Virus record (IMG/VR): IMGVR_UViG_3300031758_000240
Coordinates: 1 to 36,272 of that record
Length of the DNA: 36,272 nt
Reading direction: 5' to 3' (one strand)
From: a virus
Both the position numbers and the translations under genes were made by a program. The notes under the pieces are model-generated. The model did not search any database. It was not told the DNA's origin and saw nothing but the letters and a program-made list of their open reading frames with translations. The first letter of the stretch is position 1. Every line of letters starts with the position of its first letter. Below are positions 1,371 through 31,938 of the stretch, one piece after another.

Positions 1371-1395
1371 TTGTGCATAAGTTGGGTTAGGGAGA
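1371..1395 (+). promoter_or_regulatory. Recurrent late-promoter-like motif, copy 1
   Basis: The gap between terL and the next gene holds TGCATAAGTTG followed by GGTTAGGGAGA. It matches copies at 9725, 24165 and 30533 (consensus TGCATAAGTAGnnATAGG) and has the same TTTTG lead-in as copy 3. The G-rich end resembles the initiating region of T7-type promoters. It lies about 35 bases before the start of the 1409 gene. That it is a promoter is inferred from its recurrence, orientation and position. Confidence 0.6.
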
Positions 1396-9667: not shown

Positions 9668-9686
9668 TCAAGGCCAAGCAGTAAGA

Positions 9687-9716
9687 GCCCCGAAGAGAAA
9701 TCTTCGGGGCTTTTTT
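9687..9716 (+). terminator. Rho-independent terminator after the coat gene
   Basis: A perfect 10-bp stem (GCCCCGAAGA paired with its complement) closed by a GAAA tetraloop is followed by six T residues. It starts 20 bases after the coat stop and ends transcription of the head block. A promoter-like motif begins 9 bases further on. Confidence 0.95.
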
Positions 9717-9724
9717 ATTGGCAA

Positions 9725-9749
9725 TTCTGCATAAGTAGAGATAGGAAGA
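9725..9749 (+). promoter_or_regulatory. Recurrent late-promoter-like motif, copy 2
   Basis: TGCATAAGTAGAGATAGG starts at 9728 and is followed by AAGA. This is the copy closest to the consensus. It comes right after the head-block terminator and 84 bases before the fibre locus, so it would drive the adhesion genes independently. Confidence 0.65.
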
Positions 9750-11902: not shown

Positions 11903-13204
11903 ATGGCCGATCGTTCCATAACCCAACTGCCAGTATCAAACCCGCTGTCTGGTACCGAGGTCACCGTCATCGTACAGAACGGCATCTCAAAGCAGACGCA
12001 GCTGTCAGACATTGCCGCCCTTGGCGGCGCCGTTGGTCCAACCGGGCCGGTCGGCCCCGCGGGACCCACCGGACCCGTTGGCGGTCCAGGACCCACCGGG
12101 CCACTCGGGCCTACCGGGCCGCTTGGGCCCACGGGCCCAACTGGTCCCACCGGACCCACGGGGGACCCATCCACCGTGCCCGGACCTACCGGAGACACCG
12201 GCCCCACGGGACCATCGGGGCCCCTTGGACCGCCCGGGCCCATTGGGCCTACGGGACCCACCGGACCCACGGGGGACCCATCCACCGTGCCCGGACCCAC
12301 CGGACCCACCGGAGACACAGGACCCACCGGACCCACGGGGGACCCATCCACCGTGCCCGGACCCACCGGACCCACCGGCCCACAGGGGGACTCCACGACG
12401 TTCTTCCCGTACAAGACAAAGACCACGTCGCTAAGCGGGGACCCTGGCCATACGTACCTTCTTTGGAACGACGCGACGCAAATAAACGCGACGCAGGTAA
12501 ACGTCAGCCACATCGACAAGGACAACGTCGACGTTGACATATTTTTGGCGCTGCTACAGCAGGGCCAGAAGTTTACGATACAGGACGCGACGGTAAGCGC
12601 CAACTACCAGACCTGGCTCATAAGCGGGCCGCCGGTGAACGTGAACCCGGGGCTATCGACCAGCTACTGGGAGTACCCCGTGACGCTGGTCTCATCGGGC
12701 GGCACCGGCACGACCAACTTCCCCAACGACCACAACGTCATCTTTGCCGTCGTGTCCGGCATCGTCGGGCCCACGGGACCCACCGGAGACCCTTCGACAG
12801 TTCCAGGCCCCACGGGACCCACCGGCGACACCGGCCCCACGGGACCCAGCGTCACGGGGCCCACGGGACCAAACTACGGCTCCCGCGTCGTGGCCGTCGC
12901 AGACGCGACGTCCATCACAATGGACGCCGACACGACCGACATGGCGACGCAGGCAAACACCCAGGCCGCCGGCACCTTGACCATCAACGCCCCCACCGGA
13001 ACGCCAACAAACGGACAGAAGATAATGCTAAGGCTGACGTCTACCAACGTTCAGACCTTCTCATGGAACGCCATATTCCAGGGGTCGACGCAGCTGCCGC
13101 TGCCTACGGTATCATCCGGGTCATCCCGGGTAGACTACCTGGGCTTTATCTACAACTCAACCGCCACCAAGTGGCAGATCATTACACGAATCTTTGGGTT
13201 CTAA
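11903..13204 (+). CDS. Collagen-like tail fibre protein
   Basis: 433 residues. Residues 1-40 are an anchor segment paralogous to that of the 10955 product ([20 protein letters not shown]). Residues 45-163 are an uninterrupted-looking Gly-X-Y collagen-like rod rich in GPTGP, with [11 protein letters not shown] repeated three times. Residues 165-287 form a globular insert. A second short Gly-X-Y block is at 289-323. The C-terminal domain (about 324-433) resembles the end of the 17970 product. Trimeric collagen rods are a known way to build stiff phage fibres. The repeats are near-identical at DNA level. Confidence 0.85.
12151..12365 (+). repeat. Near-identical DNA repeats in the collagen rod
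   Basis: A unit of about 36 bases encoding [11 protein letters not shown] with flanking GPTGPT starts at 12151, 12262 and 12328 without visible base changes. Spacings of 111 and 66 bases are whole numbers of codons, so slippage or recombination would lengthen or shorten the rod without a frameshift. A diverged fourth copy lies near 12783. Confidence 0.85.
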
Positions 13205-24166: not shown

Positions 24167-24189
24167 GTGCATAAGTAGTAATAGATCCA
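24165..24189 (+). promoter_or_regulatory. Recurrent late-promoter-like motif, copy 3
   Basis: TGCATAAGTAGTAATAG begins at 24168 and diverges after the first G of the terminal G run (GATCC). It has the same TTTTG lead-in as copy 1. It lies about 40 bases before the start of the 24209 gene, which has a separate ribosome binding site (AGGAGAG). Confidence 0.65.
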
Positions 24190-30513: not shown

Positions 30514-30521
30514 GGGGTATA

Positions 30522-30560
30522 ATCTTCTCCGTTTCTGCATTAGTAGATATAGGAGAAGAT
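30522..30560 (+). repeat. Inverted repeat that can hide the ACP ribosome binding site
   Basis: ATCTTCTCC (30522-30530) is exactly complementary to GGAGAAGAT (30552-30560), with a 21-base loop holding promoter-like copy 4. The right arm contains the GGAG ribosome binding site of the ACP gene. A transcript started at the motif (predicted near 30552) would lack the left arm and so could not form the hairpin. Confidence 0.7.
30533..30557 (+). promoter_or_regulatory. Recurrent late-promoter-like motif, copy 4
   Basis: TGCATTAGTAGATATAGG begins at 30536 and is followed by AGAAG. It differs from the consensus by one base in the core. It lies 27 bases before the ACP start, so the predicted leader is only about 11 bases. 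A perfect TATAAT (30518-30523) just upstream lacks a convincing -35 box. Confidence 0.65.
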
Positions 30561-30562
30561 GA

Positions 30563-30847
30563 ATGAATTTTCTGGATCTGTTTAACCGGCTGGCAAGGCT
30601 GGCCAAGCCGGCGGCGGCGAGTGAGCTGGTCGAGATAACCGACCCACAGGGGCCCCTGAAGGACACGGGAATTGACAGCCTGGACATGCTGATGATCACG
30701 GTCTACCTGTGCGAGATCTTTGGCATACCGGAAGAGGTCGGCAAAAACCTAAAGCCGGCCAGTGTGGCAGAGGTAGAGGCCTTCGTGCAACAGCACAAGA
30801 CGAGGGACTTTGGTTCGGTAGAAGAGGCACTGGCGGCGATAACGTGA
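30563..30847 (+). CDS. Acyl carrier protein
   Basis: 94 residues. Small acidic helical protein with the ACP signature DTGIDSLDMLM, in which Ser39 of DSL would carry 4'-phosphopantetheine. Helix II (SLDMLMITVYLCEIFGI), the loop PEEVGKNLKPASV and helix III (AEVEAFVQQHK) follow in the right order. It is about 15 residues longer than Escherichia coli AcpP, at the C-terminus. The arm would be added by a host phosphopantetheinyl transferase, since none is seen here. Its stop overlaps the start of a ketosynthase gene by four bases, so the two are made together. The GGAG ribosome binding site is well placed but can be sequestered by an upstream repeat. Confidence 0.85.
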   Translation: MNFLDLFNRLARLAKPAAASELVEITDPQGPLKDTGIDSLDMLMITVYLCEIFGIPEEVGKNLKPASVAEVEAFVQQHKTRDFGSVEEALAAIT

Positions 30848-31938
30848 TTTGGCTGACCGACTACCGGACGGCCTGCACGGACCAGACGCAGGCGCTAGAG
30901 GACCTGCCGTACCCGCAGCGGGTGCACATGTTCCCCGAGACCTACCGCAGGTCGGAGACGGGCCTGGTCTACCCGCCGCACAAGCTGGCGGATAAGGTGT
31001 TGGACCCGCAGCTGGTGGCAGACGTAAGGTCACGGCCTGGCAAGACGGGGTTCATACTGGCATCGGGCAACAGCCACTTCGCCGGGATGAACGGCAAGGA
31101 AAAGAAGACGCAGCTCTGGTACGACTACAAGATGCTGCCGATGACCCTGACCCAGGTATACGCCGGCCGCATAGCGCAGCAGATGGGGGCACAGGACCTG
31201 GTAACGACGGACGCGTCTGCGTGCGCCTCGTCGTTAAAGGTGATGATGGACGTGTACATCATGATCAACTTCTACGGTTTTAAGCGCGTGGTTGTTTTAA
31301 GTTTAGAGGACGCGGTATCAAACAACGTCCTGCAGTTCTTTGGTGAGTCGGGTGCATGCCTGACGCTAAAGCAAGAAGAAGAGAGCAAAGTTATTCCATC
31401 CGCGTTTGACAGTAATAACTTTGGTTTCTACGTGGCGCAGGGCGCGGTGCTTGCCGTGTTTGAAAGCGCAGACTCCGGCCACGCTAGATTGGTAAGCGCA
31501 TACAGCGCGTCTGAGAGCAGCACCAACGCCATAGGGCAGCGAGACGATGGCGAGGGTTTTGTGAAGGCCATGCACGGCGCCATGAAGTACGGCAACGTGT
31601 CGCCGGGCAACATATCCGTGGTCAAAACCCACGGCACCGGCACCAGGTCCAACAACCTGGCAGAGGCCAGGGCGATCAAGAGCGTGCTGAACGATTTTGT
31701 AGCAACCTCATTAAAGCCAACAATTGGCCACACGATGGGGGCCTCGGGTTTGTTAGAAACCTGTGTACTGCTTGACAGACTAAAACAAACCGGCAAGGTG
31801 CCGGCAATTAAAAATAGGACCGAGCACGACCCAGTCTTCCTAAGTGAGGACACCCGGCCAAGGAGCGGAATGATCATGAGCTTAGCGGCGGGGATGGGCA
31901 ACATATACAGTGCCGCAATTTTTGACCCGAGGGTTTAA
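30844..31938 (+). CDS. Beta-ketoacyl-ACP synthase (FabF/KAS-like)
   Basis: 364 residues from the GTG at 30844, inside the ACP stop (GTGA); upstream in-frame codons lie inside the ACP gene. Thiolase-fold condensing enzyme that joins an acyl chain to malonyl-ACP. All three catalytic residues are in canonical context: Cys127 in TTDASACASS, His263 in KTHGTGTRSNNLAEA and His296 in KPTIGHTMGASG. The last segment (SLAAGMGNIYSAAIF) stands where FabF has its GFGGTN loop but is altered, so chain specificity may differ. It is about 45 residues shorter than FabF (about 410), mainly at the N-terminus. The pairing with an ACP gene argues for an active enzyme. A catalytically changed or virion-linked role is also possible. 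Confidence 0.85.
   Translation: MIWLTDYRTACTDQTQALEDLPYPQRVHMFPETYRRSETGLVYPPHKLADKVLDPQLVADVRSRPGKTGFILASGNSHFAGMNGKEKKTQLWYDYKMLPMTLTQVYAGRIAQQMGAQDLVTTDASACASSLKVMMDVYIMINFYGFKRVVVLSLEDAVSNNVLQFFGESGACLTLKQEEESKVIPSAFDSNNFGFYVAQGAVLAVFESADSGHARLVSAYSASESSTNAIGQRDDGEGFVKAMHGAMKYGNVSPGNISVVKTHGTGTRSNNLAEARAIKSVLNDFVATSLKPTIGHTMGASGLLETCVLLDRLKQTGKVPAIKNRTEHDPVFLSEDTRPRSGMIMSLAAGMGNIYSAAIFDPRV

Follow-up and report, generated by a model that had tools for sequence, protein, structure and literature searches.

The region upstream of the ACP-like gene in this virus raises the question of why a promoter-like motif should lie between the arms of a perfect inverted repeat, one arm of which contains the ribosome binding site of that gene. 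The window, that is, the whole stretch of DNA analysed, is a 36-kb virus record (36,272 nucleotides) in which terminase, portal, GroES-like, capsid, structural and endolysin genes are present. From predicted folds and the comparison of relatives, it is moderately probable that an RNA hairpin carries the promoter in its loop and would hide the ribosome binding site (RBS), such that ACP would be poorly translated from read-through transcripts and translatable from transcripts started locally.

The features of the locus are collected in the table. Profile evidence for the ACP assignment is weak: the protein scores 17.6 bits against the PP-binding profile, below the cut-off of 20.8, and has weak matches to ACP structures in the PDB as well as a match to phrog_28189. 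The assignment draws further on the position of the gene beside a ketosynthase gene and on a DSL motif, which we take to be the phosphopantetheine site. Three ketosynthase residues, C127, H263 and H296, are invariant among six aligned sequences and are presumably catalytic. Relatives of the ACP/ketosynthase pair are frequent in viral contigs: at least 512 of the 600 pattern-matched stretches listed encode a ketosynthase relative. The small ORF that precedes the element found no match in PHROG and Pfam searches. Elsewhere in the window, a 433-aa ORF carries collagen-like repeats spaced at 9 bases (12030–12886), and an array of 15-base repeats occupies the extreme end of the contig (36146–36271), where assembly may have stopped.

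Table. Features of the window that bear on the ACP locus (positions are those of the window).
Feature	Position	Strand	Basis or remark
Promoter core copy 1	1374..1390	+	Consensus scan
Promoter core copy 2	9728..9744	+	Consensus scan; shortly 3′ of terminator-like repeat 9683–9714
Promoter core copy 3	24168..24184	+	Nearest upstream source of read-through; opening-cost difference 0.2
Small ORF, 85 aa	30256..30513	+	Stop codon 5′ of the hairpin element; crossed by any read-through transcript
Degenerate upstream promoter box GGGGTATAAT	30514..30523	+	Position profile of aligned sites; family consensus AGGGCGNAAA
Left arm ATCTTCTCC	30522..30530	+	Found in read-through transcripts only
Inner hairpin UCUGC-AUUA-GUAGA	30534..30547	+	Promoter core plus two preceding bases; folds of window, L003 and L025
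Promoter core TGCATTAGTAGATATAG (motif copy 4)	30536..30552	+	Consensus scan; aligned sites
Right arm GGAGAAGAT	30552..30560	+	Contains GGAG ribosome binding site 30552–30555
ACP-like gene, 94 aa	30563..30847	+	ATG at 30563
Ketosynthase gene	30844..31938	+	PF00109 and PF02801 matches; alignment of relatives; overlaps ACP stop (GTGA)

The consensus TNTGCATAAGTAGNNATAGG occurs in the window at 1372, 9726, 24166 and 30534 with 0–2 mismatches, while the next best site has 5. The terminator-like repeat before copy 2 is a strong one and lies 3′ of the capsid gene. The motif recurs in many viral contigs, a scan returning at least 120 stretches. Some of these matches are due to chance and are without an upstream box; for this reason only sites with at least three of five box bases were kept. 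Among the matches listed, this retained 119 of 148 motif sites, which fall into 69 clusters, 42 of them with a usable start codon; the 42 include L195, L245, L012 and L136, whose automatic start calls look doubtful. The aligned sites share a 17-nt core, TGCATWAGTAGATATAG, a preceding run of T and a AGGGCGNAAA-like (AGGGC-like) box approximately 21 nt upstream. No paper on this promoter motif was recognised among the matches listed in a literature search.

Conservation of the aligned sites ends at a G followed by a purine, at about 30552 in the window, suggesting that transcription starts near this base. The left arm lies 5′ of the core and would be missing from RNA started in the core or 3′ of it, making the argument independent of the exact start base. 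The proposal of the initial annotation that RNA started at the motif lacks the left arm is thus upheld by the layout, with the promoter nature of the motif suggested by its conservation. An attempt to map the start from 5′ hairpins was dropped because of a noisy histogram (offsets 16, 18 and 19 were seen in 4, 3 and 7 of 69 clusters). A host sigma70 promoter, TTAACG-18-TATAAT (10/12 matches), was also considered and rejected; three such sites occur against 4.5 expected, and the TATAAT, which falls within the upstream box (30518–30523) as a chance-level match, is not conserved in L025.

The motif is probably a promoter for the host RNA polymerase with a phage-encoded sigma-70-family factor. In the relative G001, a single sigma-70-family protein (Sigma70_r2, r3; phrog_351) was found among 27 mostly non-structural ORFs scanned. 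The gene for this 195-aa protein is present in motif-carrying phages at L210:3001-3585 (G001:C1:43001-43588). The protein matches RpoD/SigA to about residue 183, with regions 2 and 3 recognised and no region 4 recognised; T4 gp55 is also not known to have a region 4. The gene occurs in 9 of 23 records, including G001, G002 and G003, which were fetched whole and carry the core with its box 7, 7 and 5 times, respectively. The core with its box was found 0 times in the scanned parts of MW202545 (nearly all, in two stretches) and of RW, CRP-902 and HTVC023P (the first 50 kb each), and these four are also without a sigma gene. The window fragment itself gave no sigma match. The occurrence of motif and sigma gene together in three relatives suggests that the factor reads the motif.

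The first guess was a single-subunit, T7-type phage polymerase, suggested by 17 nearly invariant contiguous bases ending in ATAG and then a purine, an ending which resembles T7 or SP6 promoters. This is now very unlikely: PF00940 was found in 0 of 11 relatives (in searches whose controls gave no positive), all three motif-bearing relatives fetched whole have the sigma-70-family gene, and a conserved box lies about 37 nt 5′ of the inferred start. The logic at the RNA level would be unchanged by it. Promoters of phage sigma factors have been described for phiEco32 and 7-11, with the consensus TAATGTATA (PMC4331800). As far as the available text of that source goes, the likeness lies in a phage sigma that is a distant relative of the sigma-A family and in a short motif, specific to the phage, that precedes structural genes; the present family differs in its 17-nt core with an upstream box and, at some sites, a terminator-like stem.

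The initial annotation had noted a perfect 9-bp inverted repeat around motif copy 4, and this is borne out: ATCTTCTCC and GGAGAAGAT are exactly complementary over 9 bp with a spacer of 21 nt, and the mismatch scan recovers the motif copy between them. As such, perfect inverted repeats of 9 bp with a loop of 3–40 nt are not rare in the window (13 positions, against 5.6 ± 3.2 expected under an order-1 Markov model); it is in folding energy and placement that this one is unusual. The hairpin has a folding energy of −19.4 kcal/mol (z −5.51), and 0 of 200 dinucleotide shuffles fold as well. An Rfam search gave 0 matches at E values up to 1.

In a transcript started upstream, the left arm would pair with the right arm and an inner helix, UCUGC/GUAGA (30534–30538 and 30543–30547 in the fold of the window), which the initial annotation had not noted, would form as well, hiding the GGAG that sits 7 nt 5′ of the ACP ATG. 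Folding does predict a helix over the SD and start, in keeping with the earlier suggestion that the left arm could cover the GGAG site in read-through RNA. Hiding GGAG would lead to poor translation of ACP and perhaps, through the gene overlap, of the ketosynthase. A transcript started near 30552 would be without the left arm and so translatable. The difference in translation between long and short transcripts is a prediction from these folds.

Relatives were collected from ketosynthase searches, comprising 5 loci plus the best 80 of 512, confirmed. Among these loci the exact motif stands before ACP in three lineages: the window, L003 and L025. A search for TTTC plus the core gave four ACP stretches, two of them window-like records and the others L003 and L025, and no further ACP lineage. 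In the predicted folds of all three lineages the core lies in a hairpin loop, with the inner helix and, outside it, a helix that covers the SD. The arms of this outer helix vary among the three in both sequence and register, suggesting that complementarity is kept while the letters change. This also bears on whether the repeat could instead be a DNA operator, the binding site of a dimeric regulator flanking the promoter, as a perfect dyad around a promoter core might suggest; since the arms of L003 and L025 differ in sequence and spacing though promoter and gene are kept, such an operator is highly improbable, slightly more so than a T7-type polymerase. With more upstream sequence included, another CCUCCC in L025 can replace the arm in pairing with GGGAGG.

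The hairpin reading was compared with other promoter sites of the family by the cost of opening the stretch from SD to start codon, as the value for read-through minus that for local transcripts. This difference is 8.0/9.7 kcal/mol for the window, 7.4/7.1 for L003 and 9.5/11.1 for L025, against a median of 0.7/0.1 over the 42 promoter sites (among the matches listed). Fold z-scores for L003 and L025 are −2.50 and −1.98. Of the base shuffles of the window's left segment, about 99.9% pair less well with the ribosome site than the segment itself does (p 0.001; 0.0014 for L003 and 0.037 for L025); compared with the left segments of 41 other promoter sites, the segment ranks 1 of 42 for this pairing. 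The three ACP lineages also have the three strongest left-RBS duplexes of the 42 sites.

The main competing explanation is that the pairing is a by-product of composition, the left arm being a remnant of a C/T-rich terminator-like stem that happens to match a purine-rich SD. Of the 69 clusters (among the matches listed), 26 have such a stem immediately 5′ of the core, and weak versions occur at the three ACP sites too. The hardest control, in which real left segments of other sites were swapped in, gives ranks of 1 for the window, 7 for L003 and 5 for L025 out of 69; the leaders of L003 and L025 find partners about as good as their own in C-rich, terminator-like left segments of unrelated sites, and C-rich left arms account for part of the pairing signal. 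Pairing between spacer and RBS is moreover no general feature of these promoters, with no effect over the 42 sites (p 0.66). Against an origin in composition stand the 9 bp of the window, which pair best with their own left segment in both rankings, the place of the three ACP lineages at the head of the duplex ranking despite different letters and register, and a combined Fisher p of 0.0055 for the swap control over the three lineages. By these ranks the window is convincing and L003 and L025 moderately so, and composition by itself is an unlikely explanation, though one of some weight.

In the comparison of arms among relatives that had been proposed, 3/3 exact-motif ACP lineages keep a predicted RBS-covering helix with different arms, but two of them rank only 7 and 5 in the swap control. 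Relatives with the motif and without complementarity, named at the outset as evidence against the hairpin, number 0/3 among these lineages, but they do occur at the same genomic position before genes other than ACP (e.g. L009). L221 has a near-core without one base before ACP, and its RBS is open (opening cost 1.6), which was counted against the hairpin model; as this stretch appears to form the end of the gene upstream, it was not classed as motif-bearing. Core look-alikes with 2–5 mismatches at L281, L237, L250 and other ketosynthase loci were not counted either.

After L279 (too short) and 5 loci lacking a usable ACP were set aside and near-duplicates merged, 34 non-redundant ACP leaders remained, among which those with the motif hold ranks 1, 3 and 4 by RBS opening cost. 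Rank 2 is taken by the motif-free L295, whose RBS is equally closed, a further point against the hairpin model. G+C alone does not explain occlusion, as it is 56% in the window, 52% in L003, 63% in L025 and 48% in L295. The mean unpaired probability from SD to start in the window is about 0.50 for local and 0.30–0.37 for read-through transcripts, a smaller shift than in opening cost, and it does not drop in some of the L003 and L025 contexts tested. Also counted against the hairpin model are the small number of lineages (three), a weak 5′-end hairpin in the local window transcript (opening cost 3.9–5.3) and the position of the SD, which would sit at the extreme 5′ end of that transcript.

Read-through into ACP appears plausible, since the terminator-like sites listed on the + strand between 25.0 and 30.5 kb (28949, 29254 and 29412) all lie within a coding sequence. 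The folding and opening-cost comparison shows no RBS hairpin of the ACP-site kind at promoter copy 3. A likely use of the ACP hairpin would be to tie ACP and ketosynthase to their own promoter rather than to read-through from the tail operon. More likely than T4-like timing is that it would free the dosage of the two genes from that of the tail operon, or else silence read-through by the host polymerase before sigma is made.

The ACP element would be a further case of the control known from T4 gene e, a principle which is itself established and may be used more widely in this phage group. According to the available text of PMC3014915, long upstream transcripts of gene e (lysozyme), and also of soc, 49 and I-TevI, hide the SD/AUG in a helix; for gene e they are silenced approximately 100-fold, while local late transcripts, without the 5′ strand, are translated well, the T4 late promoter lying within the region that encodes this strand. 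As far as that text allows comparison, the ACP site differs in that its loop holds the core, and the window belongs to another phage group with another promoter (the 17-nt core) and with ACP/ketosynthase in place of lysis or homing genes; silencing of gene e was shown by experiment, whereas that at the ACP site is a prediction. The initial annotation had invoked the T4 principle. The layout of helix and promoter fits it by prediction, but its temporal logic is unsupported: the upstream promoters of the window, including the nearest at 24168, are of the same class as the ACP promoter, and T4-like timing is therefore not implied. If the reading of an RBS-hiding hairpin is correct, the principle would serve metabolic (ACP/ketosynthase) genes, and not lysis, in a widespread uncultured phage group. 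The promoter motif and candidate sigma would make transcription units of the group readable from sequence.

Promoter-spanning hairpins recur in this phage group, though they are absent from most promoters of the family. A second kind was seen in a pattern scan, which found 17 records in which the promoter core pairs with its own leader, as in L156, where core AGTAGATATAG pairs with leader CUAUAUCUACU (z −8.9). It is tentatively proposed, as a possible but still doubtful design, that a group whose sigma has no recognised region 4 builds some of its promoters into RBS-blocking hairpins, by spacer-RBS pairing (ACP) or core-leader pairing (DUF1289 and others), so that, with upstream promoters active at the same time, these genes would still respond to their own promoter alone. 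The pairing extends over about 10–12 bp, with the own leader or the DUF1289 start codon (L156:4371-4402, L107, L117, L142, L162, L176, L185, L186 and L313–L321). Most of the 17 records begin coding at ATGTCTACT within the hairpin arm; the one scanned, L107, encodes DUF1289, and the hairpins of L156 and L320 precede other genes. Opening costs were computed for six core-leader records. For read-through against local transcripts they are 10.5 vs 6.3–8.7 kcal/mol in L107, 12.4 vs 3.5–4.0 in L117 and L162, 11.2 vs 5.4–6.4 in L315, 21.5 vs 2.6 in L156 and 5.5–6.6 vs 1.1–1.9 in L320.
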